From Paucibacter sp. Y2R2-4 (GTDB lineage: Bacteria; Pseudomonadota; Gammaproteobacteria; Burkholderiales; Burkholderiaceae_C): 64,000 bases of DNA. Position 1 is the stretch's first letter. Every line of letters starts with the position of its first letter. The notes beneath the pieces are model-generated. The model did not search any database. It was not told the origin of the DNA and saw nothing but the letters and a program-made list of their open reading frames with translations. Location of the stretch: NCBI RefSeq assembly GCF_025717535.1, contig NZ_JAJIRO010000002.1, positions 496,001 through 560,000 of the forward strand, given 5' to 3'. Both the position numbers and the translations under genes were made by a program. Of the stretch, positions 8,964 to 19,984 are shown in pieces.

Positions 8964-9411
8964 GGCTCGGCCGCTTGGCCTCCTCGGCTTGGCCCAGAGG
9001 CCAGTATCGGCTGGACCGGTTCTCCCAGGCCACGGCGACAAAGCAGGTGATCAGCAGCGCGCTGTACTCCCAGCCGTCAGAGCCGGGGCCGACCACAAAA
9101 AAACCGGCTTCACGATGGAAGATGACGATTCCGGTGAAGTAAATCACCGAGAAGGCGGCGCATAAGGGCCAAACCATGATGCGCAGGGCCAAGAACACCG
9201 CGCCAAAGGTTTCGACCAGATTCACAACGCAGGCCAAGGCATAGCCACTGCCCTTGGGAAAGCCGCTCAACTCAAGGAGCTTTCCCATGATGGGCAAACT
9301 GCCCTCGTCATAACGGTACATTCCGTGGACAAAGACGATGGCGCACAAAACCAAGCGCAACAGGTCCGGGCCTAAGCGCTGCGAAGAGATGATCCGATTC
9401 AAAAACGACAT
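8950..9411 (-). CDS. DoxX family membrane protein
   Basis: A 153-residue protein with about four hydrophobic segments and the DoxX layout (RL.L...F..HG near the N-terminus, then a long L..SGFP helix connection and V...E..GA). Start chosen at 9411 because GGGACA lies six bases upstream; the frame remains open to 9525 but gives an atypical extra hydrophobic leader. Function of DoxX proteins varies (quinone- or thiol-linked redox membrane proteins). Convergent with kce. Confidence 0.75.
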   Translation of the reverse strand: MSFLNRIISSQRLGPDLLRLVLCAIVFVHGMYRYDEGSLPIMGKLLELSGFPKGSGYALACVVNLVETFGAVFLALRIMVWPLCAAFSVIYFTGIVIFHREAGFFVVGPGSDGWEYSALLITCFVAVAWENRSSRYWPLGQAEEAKRPSLSAY

Positions 9412-10776: not shown

Positions 10777-11403
10777 TCATGCGCTCCTGCGCAAGAGCTG
10801 AAAATGCACCGCTCCCGCCCGCCCAGAGCGCCAGGCCTCCAAGCCCAGTTCCGGCGGCGGCACGATCACCTCCGCCGCTTCAAGATACACAAAGCCGCCA
10901 GGGGCCAAGAGAGGTGCAGCGGCTCGCAAAGCGGGCAAGAACAAGTCTTGCTGAAACGGCGGATCCAGCAGGATCAGCTCAAAGCGGGCCGGCGCGGAGC
11001 GTCCCATCCAGTTGAGCGCGTCGCTGCATTCCACCCGCAGATTGGCGGCCTTCAGGCGTTCGCGGCTGCTGTTCAGGCTGCGCGCCAATTCGGCGTCACG
11101 TTCCAGCAGCAAGACCTCGGTCGCACCGCGCGAGGCGGCTTCAAAGCCCAGGGCGCCACTGCCGGCAAAGGCGTCGAGCACACGCCAGCCGTCGAGGTCT
11201 TGGCCCAGCCAGTTGAACAAGGTTTCGCGCACGCGATCGGGCGTGGGGCGCAGGCCGGGCTTGTCGGCCACCGGCAGCTTGGAGCGCTTCCATTGCCCAC
11301 CGATGATGCGCACCTCGCGCGCGGCCATGCGAGGGCCACCGGCCGCTTTTTGAGTTTGCGCGGCCATGGCCTTGGCGGCACCGCTGGAACGGGGTCGATT
11401 CAT
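10777..11403 (-). CDS. rsmD: 16S rRNA (guanine(966)-N(2))-methyltransferase
   Basis: A 208-residue SAM-dependent methyltransferase of the RsmD family. It has the Arg-Ile-Ile-Gly-Gly start of the domain at about residue 32, the RPTPDRVRETLFNWL segment, the SAM-binding DAFAGSGALGFEA loop and the catalytic Asp-Pro-Pro-Phe motif at about 147. The first 30 residues are a basic extension of low conservation, so the true start could be internal. It begins three bases after the hisF stop. Confidence 0.93.
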   Translation of the reverse strand: MNRPRSSGAAKAMAAQTQKAAGGPRMAAREVRIIGGQWKRSKLPVADKPGLRPTPDRVRETLFNWLGQDLDGWRVLDAFAGSGALGFEAASRGATEVLLLERDAELARSLNSSRERLKAANLRVECSDALNWMGRSAPARFELILLDPPFQQDLFLPALRAAAPLLAPGGFVYLEAAEVIVPPPELGLEAWRSGRAGAVHFQLLRRSA

Positions 11404-11405
11404 GC

Positions 11406-12185
11406 TCAGACCCGCACCGGAATGCCGCGCGCGGCCATCAAGGCCTTGGCCTCGGCGACGGTGTGGTGGCCGTAGTGAAAAATGCTGGCGGCCAGCACCG
11501 CATCGGCGCCGCCGATCTGCACGCCATCGGCCAGGTCTTCCAGCGAGCCGACACCACCGGAAGCAATCACCGGCACCGGCACCGCGTCGCTGACGGCGCG
11601 GGTCAATTCAAGATCGAAGCCGCTGCGGGTGCCATCCCGGTCCATGCTGGTGAGCAAGATTTCGCCGGCGCCGTGCTCGGCCATTTGGCGCGCCCAGGCG
11701 ACCGCGTCCAGGCCGACATTCTTGCGGCCGCCATGGCTGTAGATGTCCCAGCCCGGGCCGCGGGCGGCCAGGTCTTCGCCTTGCCGGCGCTTGGCGTCGA
11801 TGGCGACGACGATGCACTGCGCACCGTACTTGTCGGACGCATCCCGTATCACCTGTGGGTTAGCAATCGCTGCGGAGTTGAAGGACACCTTGTCGGCACC
11901 GGCATTCAACAAGCGCCGCACATCGGCCACCTCGCGCACGCCACCGCCCACCGTCAGCGGGATGAAGACCTGCGAGGCCACCGCTTCGATGATGTGCAGA
12001 ATCAAATCGCGCCCATCGCTGGTGGCGGTGATGTCCAAAAAGGTCAGCTCGTCGGCGCCCTGCTCGTTGTAGCGCGCGGCGATCTCCACCGGGTCGCCGG
12101 CATCGCGCAGCTCAGTGAAGTTGACGCCCTTGACGACGCGACCGCCAGTCACGTCCAGGCAAGGGATGATGCGTTTGGCCAGCAT
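11406..12185 (-). CDS. hisF: Imidazole glycerol phosphate synthase, cyclase subunit
   Basis: A 259-residue (beta/alpha)8 barrel that, with HisH, turns PRFAR and glutamine-derived ammonia into imidazole glycerol phosphate and [16 protein letters not shown] with the catalytic Asp11 starts the protein; the second catalytic Asp lies in the TSMDRDG segment near residue 130. Start at 12185 chosen because the upstream extension is not family-like. It is separated from hisA by a terminator-like hairpin. hisI and hisE, often found next, are replaced by rsmD and coaD. Confidence 0.97.
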
Positions 12186-12210
12186 GGGAATAAGACTCTC
12201 GCGATAAAAC

Positions 12211-12237
12211 AAAAAAGGCCGTGCCGGGCACGACCTT
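12211..12237 (-). terminator. Terminator-like hairpin between hisA and hisF
   Basis: Read on the minus strand, a 9-bp GC-rich stem (12229-12237 with 12215-12223, one G-U pair) with a five-base loop is followed by a T-rich run (TTTTTTG then TTTT). It sits in the 75-base gap between hisA and hisF and 26 bases before the hisF start, so it may attenuate transcription into hisF and rsmD. Confidence 0.65.
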
Positions 12238-12260: not shown

Positions 12261-13004
12261 TCAGCCTAAAGAAAGCTCGTCGGCACGCGCCTGAGCGGCC
12301 GTCAGGTCCAAGTCGCCGGTGTAAATGGCGCGTCCGCAGATCACGCCCTCCACGCCTTCGTCTTCCACGGCGCACAAGGCCTCGATGTCCGCCATATTCG
12401 ACAGGCCGCCTGAGGCAATCACGGGAATGCTCAGGGCCTGAGCCAACTTGACTGTCGCTTCGATATTGATGCCGGTGAGCATGCCATCGCGGCCGATGTC
12501 GGTGTAGATCACGCCTTCGATGCCATAGCCCTCGAACTTGCGCGCCAGATCGACCACTTCATGGCCTGTCAGCTTGCTCCAACCATCGGTGGCGACCTTG
12601 CCGTCCTTGGCGTCCAAGCCCACGATGATGTGGCCGCCAAAGGCGGTGGCCGCGTCTTGCAAGAAGCCAGGGTTCTTGACCGCGGCTGTGCCGATGATGA
12701 TGTAGGACAGGCCGGCATCCAAATAGCGCTCGATGGTATCCAGATCGCGAATGCCGCCGCCGAGTTGCACCGGAATCTCGCCGTTCACCTCGCGCAAAAT
12801 CGCCTTGATGGCGCCCTCGTTCACCGGCTTGCCGGCAAAGGCCCCGTTCAGATCCACCAGATGCAAGCGGCGCGCGCCCGCATCGATCCAGCGCCGGGCC
12901 ATCGCAGCCGGGTCTTCGCCGAAGGTGGTGGAGTCATTCATATCGCCTTGCTTCAGGCGAACACAGCGACCGTCTTTCAGGTCGATAGCGGGGATCAGCA
13001 GCAT
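12261..13004 (-). CDS. hisA: Phosphoribosylformimino-5-aminoimidazole carboxamide ribotide isomerase
   Basis: A 247-residue (beta/alpha)8 barrel for the fourth histidine step (ProFAR to PRFAR). It starts with [17 protein letters not shown], carrying the catalytic Asp8, and has the second catalytic Asp in [10 protein letters not shown] near residue 130. The paired phosphate-binding glycine motifs (LGGGIRD and ASGGLS) are present. Length is standard. A 118-base purine-rich gap separates it from hisH. Confidence 0.97.
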
Positions 13005-13122: not shown

Positions 13123-13770
13123 TCAAGGCTTCCAATGCAGGAAGTTGCGATACAGGGCGAGACCGAAGGCAGCACTTTTCTCGGGATGGAACTGGGTGGC
13201 GAAAATGTTATCCCTAGCCAAGGCGCAGGTAAAGCGCAGGCCGTAATCGGTTTCACCGGCACTGTGGCGCGCATCTAACGGCGCCGCATAGAAGCTGTGA
13301 ACGAAGTAGAAGTAACTCTCATCCGGTACGCCCGCCCAGACCGGGTGCGGCAAGCTTTGCTTGACGCGGTTCCAGCCCATTTGCGGGACTTTGTAGCGGC
13401 TGCCGTCGGGCTGGATTTGGCCTTCCAGTTGGAAGCGTTTCACCCGCCCCGGGATCAGGCCCAGGCCCGGCGTGTCCTGCTCCTCGCTGTGATCCAAAAG
13501 CATTTGCATGCCGACACATACGCCCATCAAAGGCTTGTTGGCGGCGGCGTGCAGCACGGCCTCTTGCAGGCCGGAGTCGCGCAACTCGCGCATGCAGTCG
13601 CGCATGGCCCCCTGCCCTGGCAAGACCACCCGCTCGGCGGCATAGACCTCGTCGGGATTGGCGGTGATGACCACATCCAAACCGGAGTCTTGCGCCACAT
13701 GCAGCACCGCCTGAGAGACCGAGCGCAGATTGCCCATGCCGTAGTCGACGACGGCCACCGTCTTGTTCAT
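13123..13770 (-). CDS. hisH: Imidazole glycerol phosphate synthase, glutamine amidotransferase subunit
   Basis: A 215-residue class I glutaminase that supplies ammonia to HisF. The nucleophile Cys is in GVCVGMQ near residue 84, and the His/Glu pair is in TQFHPEKS near residue 195. The N-terminal [14 protein letters not shown] matches HisH. It follows hisB by a single base, so they are cotranscribed. The MarC-type gene that often lies between hisB and hisH in relatives is absent. Confidence 0.97.
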
Positions 13771-13771
13771 A

Positions 13772-14371
13772 TCAAAGACTGCCCTTGGTGGAAGGAATCA
13801 CGCCGGCCGAACGCGGGTCCAGCGTCATCGCCATGCGCAGCGCGCGGCCAAAGGCCTTGAAGATGGTCTCACACTGATGATGGGCGTTATGGCCCTTCAA
13901 GTTATCAATGTGCAGCGAGACCAGGGCATGGTTGGAAAAGCCCTGGAAGAACTCATAGGCCAGCTGCGTATCAAAGGCGCCGATCGCGCCGGAGGTGAAT
14001 TTCACATCCATCTCCAAGCCTGGGCGGCCCGAGAAGTCGATGACCACGCGCGACAAGGCTTCGTCCAGCGGCACATAGCTGTGGCCATAGCGGGTCAGGC
14101 CTTTCTTGTCGCCCACCGCCTGCGCCACCGCCAGGCCCAAGGTGATGCCCACGTCTTCCACCGTGTGGTGACCGTCGATGTGCAGATCACCCTTGGCATC
14201 GATGTCGAGATCGATCAAACCGTGGCGAGCAATCTGGTCCAGCATATGGTCGAAGAAGCCGATGCCGGTGTTCAGCTTGGCTTCACCGCTGCCGTCCAGA
14301 TTGACGCGCACGGTGATCTGGGTTTCTTTGGTGTTGCGGGTGACCTCAGCAATGCGCTGCACTTGGCTCAT
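13772..14371 (-). CDS. hisB: Imidazoleglycerol-phosphate dehydratase
   Basis: A 199-residue monofunctional dehydratase (sixth histidine step), without the phosphatase domain found in the enterobacterial fusion. It has the manganese-binding repeats [14 protein letters not shown] and [11 protein letters not shown] in the N-terminal half and [15 protein letters not shown] in the C-terminal half. It starts inside the hisC stop (ATGA overlap at 14368-14371). Confidence 0.97.
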
Positions 14372-15534
14372 GACAGTGATTCCTTAAATTGACCCCCAAG
14401 GTCGCCTTCCGGCGCCCGCCCCCCGGGGGGTGAGCAAGGAAGCTCGGGGCGGCCCAGCGCTTCCTTGAGTGCGGCCAACATGGCCGTGTTTTCTTCGGCG
14501 GTGCCGATGGTGATACGCAGGCAGTTGGCCAGCAAGGGATGCGCGGCCGATGAGTTCTTGATCAGCACGCCGCGCGCCTTCATGCCGGCAAAGGTTTGCG
14601 CCGCATCTGCCACCCGGACCAACAACATATTGCCCTGGCTGGGAAAGACCTGCACGCCGGGCAGTGCTTGCAAGGCCGCAAAGACCCGCTCCCGCTGGGC
14701 ACGCAGCTCGCTGGCTTGGGCCGCGTAAACCTCGGCATGCTCCAGCGCAAACAAGCCGGCCTCGGCGTTCAAAACGCCGATATTGAACGGCGGGCGCAGT
14801 TTGTCGATCTCGGCGATCAAGGCCGCTTGGCCGATCAGATAGCCGATGCGCACGCCGGCCAAGCCGAACTTGCTCATGGTGCGCATCACCAGCACCTGCG
14901 GGTACTTTGACAGCAGCGCCATCGAGTCCGAAGCGGCGAAGGGCTGATAGGCCTCATCCAACACCACCAAGCCGGGCGCGGCTTCAATGATCTGCTCAAT
15001 GGCGGCCATGTCCCACAAATTGCCCGTCGGGTTGTTCGGGTAGGACAAATAAACCAGGGCGGGTTGATGCGTTTGAATCGCCGCCAACATGGCCGGCAGA
15101 TCCAGCTCAAAGTCCTCGGCCCGCAAGGGCACGCCGACAAACTCCAGATTTTGATAGCGCGAAGACAGCTCGTACATCACAAAGCTGGGCAGTGGCGACA
15201 GCACCTTGACGCCGGGCCGGCTGATGGCCATGCTGAGCATGGTGATCAGCTCATCAGAGCCATTGCCCAGGGTGATGGCGCAGCCGGCGGGCATGCCGGC
15301 GTGCGCAGCCAGCGCTCGCGCTAGGTCTTGAGTGCGCTCAGCGGGATAACGATTGATCGCCACGGCGCCCAGCCGCGCGCCCAAGGCGGCCTGCAAATCA
15401 GTTGGCAGGCGGAAGGGGTTTTCCATCACATCCAGCTTGACCATGCCAGCACTGGCAGCGACCGGGTAAGCGTGCATGGCGCGCACATCGTCGCGAATAC
15501 AGCTCAAGGCTTGGTTCAGGTCGGCGGTCTTCAT
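14368..15534 (-). CDS. hisC: Histidinol-phosphate aminotransferase
   Basis: A 388-residue PLP aminotransferase of fold type I. The PLP lysine is in the [13 protein letters not shown] segment, with [11 protein letters not shown] and VLDEAYQPF before it. Start chosen at 15534, which overlaps the toxin stop by four bases; a further upstream start is possible but inside the toxin gene. The last about 25 residues (Pro, Gly and Ser rich) are not aminotransferase-like: they are translated from a GC-rich intergenic repeat that lies in the 3' end. Confidence 0.96.
14391..14457 (+). repeat. GC-rich repeat copy inside the hisC 3' end
   Basis: A block starting ACCCCCA, with a GCCCCCCGGGGGG core and ending GGGGCGGCCCAGCG, is a diverged relative of the element at 7613-7690 in the same strand orientation. 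It lies within the open frame of hisC (antisense to it) and ends close to the hisB start. Confidence 0.6.
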
Positions 15535-15983
15535 GCGCTCAAACGCTCCGTTCCACACAGCTTGGGATTGAGGATGGTGACGCTGTCAAACACGGCCTCA
15601 TGCGCCAAATCGAGGCTCAAAAGCCAGGCGCAGCCTTGCGCCTTGGCGGCCGCGACGATCAAGGCGTCGGCATAGGGCAGGCCAAAGCGACTTTCGATCG
15701 ACCAGGCGCTCTCCACCGTGGCATGGTCAATCGCCCAGGGTTGCCAGCGCTGATAGCGACGCACTTCAGCGCGGGCATCGCCATTCGGCATGGCGGGCTG
15801 AATGCGGGTGGTGACCCAGCGGTAAAAGTCGTTCAAAACCTGGGTCGAAACACGGCCGCTGCGGCTCAGCCACAAATGACGCAGCCAGTGCATGGCCTGT
15901 TCACGTGCGGCCAGATCCGCACCGTCTTCGCTGAGGATGAGCACCGAGGTGTCGACGAAGACCAAGCTTGCCAAGTCGCTCAC
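15531..15983 (-). CDS. PIN domain toxin (VapC-like)
   Basis: A 150-residue PIN-domain protein, expected to be a metal-dependent RNase. The first acidic residue is in the FVDTSVLI strand near residue 10, and further conserved Asp residues are in GLPYADALIVAAA and LLSLDLAHE in the last third. It starts with GTG at 15983, overlapping the antitoxin stop (GTGA), and its stop overlaps the hisC ATG (ATGA). Toxin and hisC are therefore translationally linked. Confidence 0.85.
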   Translation of the reverse strand: MSDLASLVFVDTSVLILSEDGADLAAREQAMHWLRHLWLSRSGRVSTQVLNDFYRWVTTRIQPAMPNGDARAEVRRYQRWQPWAIDHATVESAWSIESRFGLPYADALIVAAAKAQGCAWLLSLDLAHEAVFDSVTILNPKLCGTERLSA

Positions 15984-16204
15984 CGAGCCTCCTCGCCGCG
16001 CTGTGGGTAAGGCTCACCGTTGGAAACCCAGCTGCGCTCGCGGTGCACCCAGTCTTGCAGGGCCCGCTCGTAAGCGTCGTCGTGCCGCATCTTTTCCGCC
16101 AACATCTCGCCCACCAAGCGGGACACGCTGGTGTTGCGGCGGGCGGCCTCAAGGCGAGCCCACTCGGCAACGGAATCTTCCATGGTGACGGTCACATTCT
16201 TCAC
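15980..16204 (-). CDS. Ribbon-helix-helix antitoxin
   Basis: A 74-residue protein with an N-terminal beta strand (KNVTVTMEDSV) followed by two short helices (EWARLEAARRN, SVSRLVGEML), the ribbon-helix-helix DNA-binding layout. The C-terminal half is acidic and probably wraps the partner toxin. It precedes the PIN toxin with a four-base overlap. Two palindromes immediately upstream are the likely autoregulatory operator. Confidence 0.83.
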   Translation of the reverse strand: MKNVTVTMEDSVAEWARLEAARRNTSVSRLVGEMLAEKMRHDDAYERALQDWVHRERSWVSNGEPYPQRGEEAR

Positions 16205-16214
16205 AAGCGCAGTT

Positions 16215-16255
16215 TACACGAAGGACACGAAGTTCGTGCACCACGAAGTTCGTGT
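16215..16255 (-). promoter_or_regulatory. Repeated palindromic operator upstream of the toxin-antitoxin pair
   Basis: The 13-base palindrome CACGAAGTTCGTG occurs perfectly twice, at 16226-16238 and 16242-16254 (16 bases centre-start to centre-start), with a degenerate CACGAAGG half-site at 16216. It starts 11 bases upstream of the antitoxin ATG on the minus strand, where RHH antitoxins usually bind. No clear -35/-10 pair was assigned. It may also affect the divergent chemotaxis gene that starts at 16400. Confidence 0.75.
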
Positions 16256-16399: not shown

Positions 16400-17965
16400 A
16401 TGTCATGGTTCGATCTTTCGGCTCAGTCCTTGCGCACCCGGTTTGCTTTGATGATCGGCGCCAATGTGATGGCCACCGCCGTGTTGCTGGGCCAAGCGGT
16501 CTACAGCTTTGAGCGCTTGCATGAGGATGCCGAACGCAGCTTTGTGGCCAAAGACGTGGTGGCCGACATCCTGCCGCCGCCCATGTACTTGATCGAGCTG
16601 CGTCTGCTGCTCTCAGAAGCCGTGGAAGGCAGCATCAGCCTCGAACAGAGCAAGCAGGAACTCAAAAGACTGCAGTCGGAGTACCAGGCCCGCGTCCAAT
16701 ACTGGACCGAGAACCCGCCCTATGGCTTGCAGAAGCAGCTCCTGGGTGAACAGCACCAGTCGGCACAACAAATACTCGAGCAAGCAAAAAGCCTGGTGCT
16801 GGACCCGCTGGAACGCAAAGACGCCGAGGCGGCCAAGGCCGGCCTGCAAACCGTGCATCAAAGCTACCTGCAACACCGCCGCGCGGTGGACGGCACGGTG
16901 ACCGCCGGCACCACCTTCGCCGAAACAGCAACTCAAAGCTTCAGCCAAGCGCGCCGCAATGGCATTTTGGCCATGGTGCTGGTGGGCGGCTTGGCCGCAC
17001 TGGGTGTGGGCGGCAGCCTATGGGCGCTGCAGCGCACCATCATGGGTTCGCTCAAAAAGGCCTCCAGCATCGCTCGCACCGTGGCGGATGGGGATTTGCG
17101 CATGCAAGAGGCCGGCAGCGGCAAAGACCGTCCTCCCATGCCCAGCCGCAACGAGTTGCGCAGCCTGCGCCATGACATCCATCAGATGGTGTTGCGGCTG
17201 CGGGAGCTGATCTCCCGTGTGCAGCAAGGTGCGCAGCATGTGGAGACCAACTCGCGCAGCATTTCGCAAGCCAACGCCGAGTTGTCCGCACGCGCCCTGC
17301 TGGAAGTGCACGACCTGGAGCAGGCCAGCGAGGCGCTGCAGGCCATGGACCAACAAGCCAAACTCGGCGCCAGTTCCGCAAGCCAAGCGAATGAGCGCTC
17401 CAGCCAGGCAGCAAAGCTGGCGCGCCAAGGCAGCGCGGATATGCAGGCCGTGGTCGGCGCCATGCAAGAGATCGAGCAAAGCAGCCGCCGCATTGCCGAC
17501 ATCACTGGCGTGATCGACAGCATCGCTTTTCAGACCAATATCCTGGCCTTGAATGCCGCCGTCGAAGCCGCCCGCGCCGGTGAGGCCGGTCGCGGCTTTG
17601 CCGTGGTGGCCAGCGAGGTGAGAACCCTGGCCAAGCGCAGTGCCGATGCGGCGCTGGAGATCAAGCAACTGATCCAAGGCAGCAGCGTGCAAGTGGAACG
17701 CGGCGCCGGCGCGGTGCAACACACGCGCAGCACCATCGACGAGATGGTGGAGCAGGTCGCCGAAGTCAGCCGCTTGATTCAGGGCAGCAGCCATGAGTTG
17801 CAACAGCAACTCGGCTCCATCGCCTCACTGAATCAATTGCTTGACGGCATTGCCCATCGCATCCGCGAGAACAGCGAGATGGTGGACCGCACCGCCTCCG
17901 AATCCGCCGAGCTGCAAACCGAGGGCATCGACCTGAACGAGGCCGCGCAGCGCTTCAAGCTCTGA
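16400..17965 (+). CDS. Methyl-accepting chemotaxis protein
   Basis: A 521-residue receptor. It has a short cytoplasmic start, TM1 at about residues 14-34, a helical periplasmic domain (about 35-188) with a distinctive Pro-Pro-Pro-Met-Tyr motif, TM2 at about 189-212 and a HAMP-like linker. The coiled-coil signalling domain contains the hairpin tip [20 protein letters not shown] near residue 375. Ligand unknown. It lies on the opposite strand between hisD and the hisC half of the pathway, which indicates an insertion or rearrangement. Confidence 0.93.
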
Positions 17966-18009: not shown

Positions 18010-19317
18010 TCAGCGCTTCAAGCGCATTTCTGCCGCGCGGGCATGACCTTGCAGGCCTTCGCCATAGGCCAGCTCGGCCGCAATCGGGCCTAGCTTTTGC
18101 GCTCCGGCCTCGCTGACCTCGATCAGGCTGCTGCGCTTTTGGAAGTCGTACACGCCCAGCGGCGAAGAGAAGCGCGCCGTGCCCGAGGTGGGCAAGACAT
18201 GGTTGGGGCCGGCGCAGTAGTCGCCCAAGCTTTCGCTGGTGTAGGCGCCCAAGAAGATCGCACCGGCATGGCGCAGCAAGGGCTCCCACTTCTGCGGATG
18301 CTCGCTCGACACCTCCAAATGCTCAGGCGCGATACGGTTGGAAATCTCGCAGGCCTCTTCCATCGAACGCGTCAGGATCAAGGCGCCCCGCCCTTCCAGT
18401 GAGGCGCGAATCACCTCCTTGCGCGGCATCTCGGGCAACAAGCGCTCGATCGAGGCGCGCACCAGCGCCAAGTACTCGGCGTCGGGGCTCAGCAAAATGC
18501 TTTGCGCCAATTCGTCATGTTCGGCCTGGCTGAAGAGATCCATGGCCACCCAGTCCGGCGGCGTTGTGCCATCGGCCAGCACAAGAATTTCGCTGGGGCC
18601 GGCAATCATGTCGATGCCCACTTGGCCGAACACATGCTTTTTGGCGCTGGCCACATAGGCATTGCCGGGGCCGGTGATTTTGTCCACGCGCGGCACCGTG
18701 GCCGTGCCGTAGGCCAAAGCCGCCACGGCTTGCGCGCCGCCCAGCGTAAAGGCCCGGTGCACACCGGCCACATAGGCGGCCGCCAGCACCAAGGGGTTCT
18801 TTTCACCGCGAGGCGTGGGCACCACCATGATGATCTCGGGCACACCTGCCACTTGGGCCGGGATGGCGTTCATCAACACCGAGCTGGGGTAAGCCGCCTT
18901 GCCGCCGGGCACATAAATGCCCACGCGGTCCAGCGGCGTGACCTTTTGGCCCAAGAGCGTGCCGTCTTCGTCGCGGTAGCTCCAGCTCAGGCCGCACGCC
19001 TCTTTCTGGCGCTCGTGATAACTGCGCACCCGGGCGGCCGCAGCCTCCAGGGCCGAGCGTTGGGCCGGGTTGATGGCCTCAAACGCGGCCTTCAACTCTT
19101 CGCGCGTCAGCTCCAAATTGGCCACGCTGGCGGCATTCAAATGGTCGAAGCGCTGGGTGTACTCCAGCACCGCAGCGTCTCCGCGCGCCTTCACATCGGC
19201 CAGGATCTCGGCCACGCGACCTTCAATGGCGGCGTCGGTCTCGGCGGACCAATGCAGCACGCGCTGGAACTCGGTTTCGAAGTCGTCGGAAGCGGTGCTG
19301 AGTTGGCGCAGATTCAT
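18010..19317 (-). CDS. hisD: Histidinol dehydrogenase
   Basis: A 435-residue zinc enzyme that oxidises L-histidinol to L-histidine in two NAD-linked steps. The family stretches [28 protein letters not shown] and AGPSEI are present, as is the catalytic [12 protein letters not shown] segment with its Glu-His pair near residue 338. Start chosen at 19317 (25 bases after hisG); the frame extends to 19365 into hisG without family-like sequence. It ends 44 bases from the convergent chemotaxis gene. Confidence 0.97.
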
Positions 19318-19342
19318 GGCAGCTGTGGGTTGGCGAGAGTCT

Positions 19343-19984
19343 TCAGGCTTGGATGGCGGAGGCAAAGGCGTCGATCATGCGACGCAGCGGCTCTCGCTTG
19401 AGCTTGAGCGCCGCCTGGTTGACCACCAGGCGCGAGGAGATTTCCATGATGTGCTCCACCTCGACCAAATGATTGGCACGCAAGGTGTTGCCGGTGGAGA
19501 CCAAGTCCACGATGGCATCGGCCAAACCGGTCAGCGGCGCCAACTCCATCGAACCATAAAGCTTGATCAGGTCGACGTGCACGCCCTTGTCGGCAAAGTG
19601 CTGACGAGCGATTTCGGTGTACTTGGTGGCCACGCGGATGCGCGAACCCTGCTTGACCGCAGCGGCGTAGTCGAAGTCATCACGCACCGCCACGCTCATG
19701 CGGCAGCGGGCGATGTTCAGGTCCAGCGGCTGGTACATGCCGTCCACGCCGTGTTCGATCAAAACATCGCGACCCACCACGCCGAGGTCGGCGCCGCCGT
19801 GCTGCACATAAGTGGGCACATCGCTGGCACGCACCAGCACCACCCGCACCTCCGGGCTGTTGGTGCCCAGAATCAGCTTGCGCGAGGTTTCCGGGTCTTC
19901 CAACACCTGAATGCCTGCGGCTTTCAGCAGCGGCAGGGTTTCTTCAAAAATGCGGCCTTTGGACAGGGCTAAGGTAATCATCAA
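19343..19984 (-). CDS. hisG: ATP phosphoribosyltransferase, short form
   Basis: A 213-residue short-form HisG catalysing the first committed step (ATP + PRPP). The N-terminal [18 protein letters not shown] segment and the phosphate loop [12 protein letters not shown] near residue 160 are typical. The short form lacks the regulatory domain and needs a HisZ partner, which is not in this window. It is the first gene of the hisG-hisD pair; only 85 bases separate it from bolA, where murA is often found in relatives. Confidence 0.96.

Follow-up and report, generated by a model that had tools for sequence, protein, structure and literature searches.

The closest described relatives of the locus considered here are the VapBC and FitAB toxin-antitoxin modules. 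In ordinary type II modules, the antitoxin is lost by protease turnover in amino-acid shortage, and the tail of the antitoxin binds, or plugs, the toxin. PutA, an enzyme that is fused to an RHH repressor of its own operon, has no PIN protein. It has long been asked whether toxin-antitoxin modules on chromosomes come to benefit their hosts.

VapC toxins are described, in the part of PMC7180214 that deals with their active site, as sharing four conserved acidic residues, D, E, D and D/N. Table 2 of Makarova et al. 2009 contains 24 cases of a PIN gene beside a pfam00155 aminotransferase gene, which were set aside as parts of larger conserved gene associations; the passages on these cases give the aminotransferase no closer name, and the main text nowhere contains the word histidine (PMC2701414). 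The his operons of other groups are headed by HisR, a TrpR-family repressor of the his genes, which the text of PMC9413887 reports for Firmicutes and for some gamma- and alpha-proteobacteria, with 0 occurrences in that text of betaproteobacteria under six spellings and names. The his genes and relBE pair of Vercammen 2013 (PMC3948609) are placed by its account on one fosmid, are not adjacent, and hence represent a different arrangement. No description of an RHH-PIN module within a his operon was recognised in the open-access literature. In the arrangement detailed below, as judged from genome comparison, the histidine operon has recruited a toxin-antitoxin module on a family-wide scale, broader than one window and with the operator preserved, and the module looks like a former selfish element that has turned into a regulator of histidine synthesis.

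Gene order at the histidine locus

The window, which is the whole stretch of 64,000 nucleotides of Paucibacter sp. Y2R2-4 DNA that was analysed, contains the following features.

10777..11403, minus strand: RsmD-like methyltransferase, 2 bp 3' of hisF (Pfam Cons_hypoth95)
11406..12212, minus strand: hisF (Pfam His_biosynth)
12261..13004, minus strand: hisA (Pfam His_biosynth)
13123..13770, minus strand: hisH (Pfam GATase and position)
13772..14371, minus strand: hisB (Pfam IGPD)
14368..15534, minus strand: hisC, with its ATG start inside the toxin stop overlap (TIGR01141 hisC, above cut-off)
15531..15983, minus strand: PIN-domain protein of 150 aa, VapC/FitB-like toxin fold (Pfam PIN)
15980..16204, minus strand: antitoxin-like, putative RHH protein of 74 aa, GTG start (ORF and overlap read from sequence)
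16226..16238, no strand: operator palindrome proximal to the antitoxin, CACGAAGTTCGTG
16242..16254, no strand: operator palindrome distal to the antitoxin, CACGAAGTTCGTG
16400..17965, plus strand: methyl-accepting chemotaxis protein (MCP) gene between the RHH-PIN pair and hisGD (Pfam MCPsignal)
18010..19365, minus strand: hisD, the upstream operon part in relatives (Pfam Histidinol_dh)
19343..19984, minus strand: hisG (Pfam HisG)

The GTGA at 15980-15983 is common to the antitoxin stop and the toxin start, and the ATGA at 15531-15534 is common to the toxin stop and the hisC start. These overlaps, and the coordinates given in the initial annotation, were borne out when the window sequence was re-read, whereas its description of the pair as translationally fused was not, as the genes overlap and are not fused. 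The MCP gene is indeed interposed on the opposite strand, leaving hisD 1.8 kb from the antitoxin, and both 13-bp palindromes are perfect, as had been claimed. A half-site had also been proposed; CACGAAG is present at 16217-16223 but is out of step with the conserved operator's 16-bp register.

The RsmD-like methyltransferase, the gene of which directly follows hisF, possibly shares a transcript with it. A gene with a PRA-PH (hisE-type) domain is located in the same genome at G000:C1:1435983-1436240, on another contig than hisF, so that the his genes are split further. The genome also encodes a second PIN protein (L001, G000:C5:550228-550587), with no his genes within 1.5 kb. At E <= 1, no defence-system or NCBIfam label was obtained for either the antitoxin or the PIN protein of the window. 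A his leader attenuator was considered for the window and rejected, with 0 Rfam matches at the gathering score between positions 9000 and 21500.

The assignment of the two proteins as an RHH and PIN pair held firmly for the PIN protein, which matches Pfam PIN above the cut-off (E 4.6e-9) with agreement between model and fold matches, and was kept for the antitoxin on its predicted fold, as Pfam gives no RHH model for the window protein. The predicted fold consists of an N-terminal stretch, then two helices and a low-confidence tail, and its Foldseek neighbours are mostly RHH proteins at non-significant E-values (0.3 and up). From this predicted fold and its weak matches, the window antitoxin is probably of the RHH type. 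Thirty antitoxin members compared with Pfam at E <= 1 matched RHH_1 in one case (0.018) and CopG_antitoxin in two (0.043), and the Trp repressor family is absent among the 15 families matched by any of them. An identity as HisR (TrpR family) is not supported, as no TrpR-type domain was found in this comparison and the predicted fold is RHH-like.

Distribution, junctions and operator of the his-linked pair

The initial annotation had suggested that the his loci of relatives be compared for the presence of the pair, and the pair is found directly 5' of hisC in 126 genomes (118 of the 399 sampled family genomes and 8 further genus members), which rules out a local accident. In the genus (Roseateles/Paucibacter), the his-linked pair is present in 14 of 18 genomes and a PIN match in 17 of 18, with 14 at 79-91% identity, counting the window's own PIN protein (100%) as the reference, and 3 at 28-29%. 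At E <= 1e-15, a PIN match was found in 120/399 family genomes, and 118 of these matches are his-linked while those in G234 and G707 are not. Elsewhere in the order, PIN matches were found in 62 sampled genomes that do not belong to the family; none of the 24 loci taken from these, with flanks of up to 1.5 kb, has hisC within 1.5 kb, and at L014 a hisD-like sequence is weakly matched (E 8e-9).

A second collection of 84,980 species, which overlaps the first, was scanned with the antitoxin alignment and yielded 346 antitoxin relatives. The best 80 of the 346 all have the toxin and hisC downstream (80/80), and they include Roseateles (with Paucibacter, Pelomonas and Mitsuaria), Ideonella, Rhizobacter, Aquabacterium, Polaromonas, Caenimonas, Variovorax, Curvibacter, Rubrivivax, Methylibium and other Burkholderiales. 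Roseateles depolymerans and Polaromonas sp. JS666 are among those with the locus. The Methylotenera and Bordetella records among the relatives come from metagenome bins, and their labels may be wrong.

All 126 his-linked PIN genes are preceded by the antitoxin, and the antitoxin alone was found at none of 60 pair-less his loci, which were drawn from the hisD matches listed and so represent closer relatives. Presence of the pair is patchy: the his-protein tree requires 18 changes, where 20 label shuffles required 43-54; the tree covers 106 of the pair-bearing genomes, as the other 20 of the 126 loci lack enough his sequence. The his-linked pairs may have a single origin: on a quick tree their label needs two changes, a number imposed by the starred branches in a tree where long branches meet, and a tree with the his-linked pairs as one clade scored better and was not rejected (p-AU 0.962).

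The gap between toxin and hisC ranges from -32 to +124 bp and is unopened in all 122 genomes in which hisC was scored. In the remaining 4/126, hisB lies 1.10-1.14 kb after the toxin, a spacing that fits room for a diverged hisC. On the other side of the pair, the distance between antitoxin and hisD stays below 300 bp in 37/126 genomes (32-168 bp) and is larger in 51, with hisD absent from the fetched flank in 38, and this junction has undergone 19 changes on the his-protein tree of 106 pair-bearing genomes. The nearest upstream ORF, as given by a greedy ORF estimate of orientation, is on the opposite strand in 56/126 genomes and is another ORF on the same strand in 32, with the flank too short in 1. 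Within the genus, the contrast is clear-cut, though on small numbers: the hisD side is open by more than 300 bp in 12 of 14 pair-bearing members, and the 4 of 18 that lack the pair also lack the operator, as far as the fetched loci extend, and have hisD directly 5' of hisC in all four, one of them (G413) with a hisC cut by contig ends. No hisD match was found within 6 kb 5' of the pair in L272-L274 and G621 (Roseateles depolymerans, R. terrae, Roseateles sp. YR242), and in G621 hisD is on another contig, so that the pair forms the head of the hisC part.

Among the pair-less relatives, 59 of 60 could be judged, as L195, the sequence of which ends at hisD, was dropped from the gap counts. In 8 of these 59, hisD and hisC are apart; L216 and L225, without hisC between hisD and hisB, and L202 and L203, with a C-terminal extension of HisD, were counted as unbroken. 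The hisD junction is broken in 69/106 pair-bearing genomes versus 8/59 pair-less ones (raw Fisher p 7e-11), counts that serve as illustration only, and over phylogenetically independent pairs the association is not significant (median p 0.375). The idea that the pair frees hisC from hisGD is not supported by this phylogenetic test.

Several further arrangements were observed around hisD. Chemotaxis-receptor genes recur near the hisD-antitoxin interval, with a match at 18/126 loci, 8 on the his strand and 10 opposite; examples besides the window are L042, L044-L047, L050, L057, L058, L076, L081, L086, L089 and L100. At the pair-less loci L214, L223 and L224, MCP matches are located about 2 kb downstream of hisD. 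Three other pair-less loci (L191, L194 and L201) harbor a hisD-hisC gap of about 540 bp with small opposite-strand ORFs, one of which resembles by eye a short DNA-binding protein, possibly a different small module. The HisD extension of L202 and L203 (G789 and G598) comprises 168 codons directly 5' of hisC, and that of L202 matches the GNAT acetyltransferase domain of Pfam (E 4e-11).

The operator consists of two CACGAAGTTCGTG copies 16 bp apart on the 5' side of the antitoxin, and CACGAANTTCGTG is found only at these two places in the whole 5.13-Mb genome. With one mismatch allowed, at least two palindrome matches arose in 1 of 100 window shuffles. In the his-linked genomes, the tandem operator is found within 250 bp of the antitoxin start with at most 4 mismatches of 24 in 126/126, at most 2 in 121 and none in 81, and its central base is variable. 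Its distance from the start has a median of 14 bp and a range of 3-176 bp, L154 and L165 lying at 123 and 176 bp. The same tandem search gave 9-13 mismatches in controls of 250 bp, comprising the hisD end of 60 pair-less genomes and 124 hisC/hisB junctions. The exact tandem pattern occurs in 73/399 family genomes, at a single place per genome and in every case 227-422 bp 5' of a his-linked toxin, and its reversed-pattern control occurs in 0/399. Chance palindromes are ruled out by the shuffles, the uniqueness within the genome, the 0/399 control and the conservation in 126/126. A wider regulon was also rejected in a search limited to the exact palindrome, which has no other place in its own genome, and the exact tandem, which has no second place in any of the 73 genomes.

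The operator is looser in PIN-antitoxin pairs that are not his-linked, with a best tandem of 2-11 mismatches in 16, and in L007 and L008 it is interleaved by eye with TTGACA/TATACT-like hexamers. The candidate explanation that the operator was invented for his is ruled out by this looser version, which is common to pairs away from his genes and indicates that the operator came with the module. By this comparison it appears to have arrived with the module and then to have been kept almost letter for letter beside his while the antitoxin diverged. The identity of his-linked antitoxins falls to as little as 45%, and W15, R17, S26, S28, G32 and Y45 are kept in 126/126 orthologues.

Decay of the PIN active site and constraint on both proteins

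The acidic residues of the window PIN protein are D11, D52, D106 and D125 (D-D-D-D), and with all four kept the protein may still be a nuclease in the window. Away from his genes, D-E-D-D is found in 28/28 alignable PIN relatives, out of a control set of 29 (24 from outside the family and 5 from within it, L023 being unalignable), and an antitoxin match lies beside 16 of the 29. The his-linked PIN proteins carry D-E-D-[D/N] in only 37/126, and at least one of the four positions is not acidic, with N allowed at the fourth, in 58/126. The fourth is the position most often lost, being replaced by A, H, S, T, G, V or Q, and acidic and non-acidic states interchange 11 times on the tree of 106 his-linked genomes. 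Compensation for the lost fourth acid was considered and rejected: of the 52 proteins in which the fourth position is not D, E or N, 25 carry an acidic residue in 121-128, often an E beside D125 that is also common in non-his PIN relatives.

In five groups, four of them without the fourth acid, the PIN protein has a median dN/dS of 0.09-0.32, near that of hisC in the same groups. For the antitoxin it is 0.05-0.09, a constraint similar to that on HisB, and in one group of the five the antitoxin and PIN medians are about equal. On these ratios both proteins are under purifying selection, and the PIN protein is not a relic. A loose antitoxin tail motif, picked post hoc with the data already seen, is present in 72/74 genomes with an acidic or N fourth PIN residue and in 33/52 without one, being missing in 19/52.

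RHH and PIN form a single reading frame of 233-243 aa, with the operator kept, in L111, L113, L116 and L126 (G483, G582, G425 and G695). The fusion requires two changes on the his-protein tree, and in the genus of G483 it is found in 2 of 5 genomes while the other 3 gave no match. A toxin that shares one chain with its own antitoxin cannot act by outliving that antitoxin.

Proposed control of hisCBHAF and comparison with known systems

It is more likely than not, in our judgement, that the toxin-antitoxin module has been domesticated, controls the transcription of hisCBHAF locally and represses its own promoter. This promoter would lie under the tandem operator and yield a single coupled message for the antitoxin, the PIN protein and hisCBHAF, and an RHH dimer, probably as an RHH-PIN complex on both palindromes, would repress it. 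When the antitoxin level falls, for instance through protease turnover in amino-acid shortage, repression would be lifted and the His enzymes would rise, the outcome being autogenous control of five His enzymes. An inverted-repeat operator that precedes the antitoxin is a VapBC-type characteristic and is here a candidate site as read from sequence. The module appears to behave like an autoregulated type II module, with a catalytic set that is often broken, and is a candidate rather than a full member of the VapBC type.

The position of the promoter is less readily assigned, as neither a consensus scan nor a relaxed score gives a clean promoter call. The window has no consensus sigma-70 promoter at its own operator, nor any such site before hisC; the initial annotation had named a separate strong hisC promoter inside the toxin gene as a finding that would speak against its proposal. 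Sites with at least 9 of 12 promoter matches occur before hisC in 0/122 genomes and before the antitoxin in 21/126, and the mean score before the antitoxin (7.43) is hardly above that of shuffles (7.21). The initial annotation had also placed hisCBHAF under the promoter of the antitoxin, which we infer as well, with strong comparative support from the operator in 126/126 genomes, the junction that is never opened and the pair-less genus members, which have no operator and carry hisD next to hisC. Its further suggestion that the linkage stabilises the toxin pair is hard to square with PIN active sites that have decayed repeatedly and with antitoxin and toxin fused in some genomes, and because of these two observations regulation is the better reading. 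Counting against regulation, gene overlap alone could protect the toxin-hisC junction, the pair is patchy in its presence, and the window PIN protein has its four acidic residues.

The pair could instead be a working type II addiction module that has settled in an essential operon, where the toxin still cuts RNA, the his genes follow its autoregulation, and the hisC overlap and shared promoter make the module hard to lose. The overlaps, operator and PIN fold are as in ordinary VapBC/FitAB modules, the pair is patchily distributed, and the catalytic set is retained in 37/126 PIN proteins, with four acidic residues also in that of the window. We consider this unlikely, given the acidic positions gone in 58/126, the purifying selection in four groups without the fourth acid, the fused RHH-PIN proteins, and the absence of a second place for the exact tandem operator in any of 73 genomes. 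It is quite unlikely that the operator governs only the antitoxin and PIN genes while hisCBHAF is expressed from another promoter, either in the PIN gene or by read-through. With hisD within 300 bp in 37/126 genomes, read-through from hisGD is possible for some loci, but in 56/126 the pair is preceded by an ORF that runs the other way, no sigma-70-like site precedes hisC, and toxin and hisC are separated in 0/122 measured cases.

An extension of the regulatory reading is decidedly doubtful: a nuclease-dead PIN protein would have been retained to sense RNA, such as uncharged histidine tRNA, and would signal to RHH when to leave the operator, with both functions in one chain in some lineages. 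Finally, regulation by RHH alone, as an activator or with histidine as effector, beside a PIN protein of unrelated function such as RNA processing of the his message, might account for an antitoxin and operator more constrained than the PIN protein (about equal in one group of five) and for the sole solved relative by profile being PcrIIC1, a PIN protein in a Cas9 complex, but is highly improbable with an antitoxin before all 126 his-linked PIN genes, a PIN gene with the best 80 of 346 antitoxin relatives, no antitoxin without PIN at any of 60 pair-less his loci, and the post hoc tail motif in 72/74 against 33/52.

Taken as a regulator of hisCBHAF, the module appears to be caught mid-course within one family: its catalytic set is intact in some genomes and decayed in others, and in a few RHH and PIN have become one protein, with the operator meanwhile nearly fixed and five biosynthetic genes riding on the module. 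It provides a proposal for control of histidine synthesis in a group for which no his regulator was recognised in the open-access literature. HisR, as portrayed in the text cited above, differs from the RHH-PIN module in both protein fold and operator. The recruitment of an RHH domain for a metabolic operon is shared with PutA, the RHH domain of which is among the fold neighbours of the antitoxin. PcrIIC1 (8wmm) is a PIN protein solved in a Cas9 complex, whereas the window PIN protein follows an RHH protein in a his operon. The hisC of the window belongs to pfam00155, as do the aminotransferases in the Makarova et al. 2009 table, and some of those 24 cases may represent the his-linked locus (PMC2701414). 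In comparison with VapBC and FitAB, the module described here is tied to the histidine operon across a bacterial family, its active site has repeatedly decayed, its RHH and PIN proteins are sometimes fused, and its antitoxin is about as constrained as HisB.
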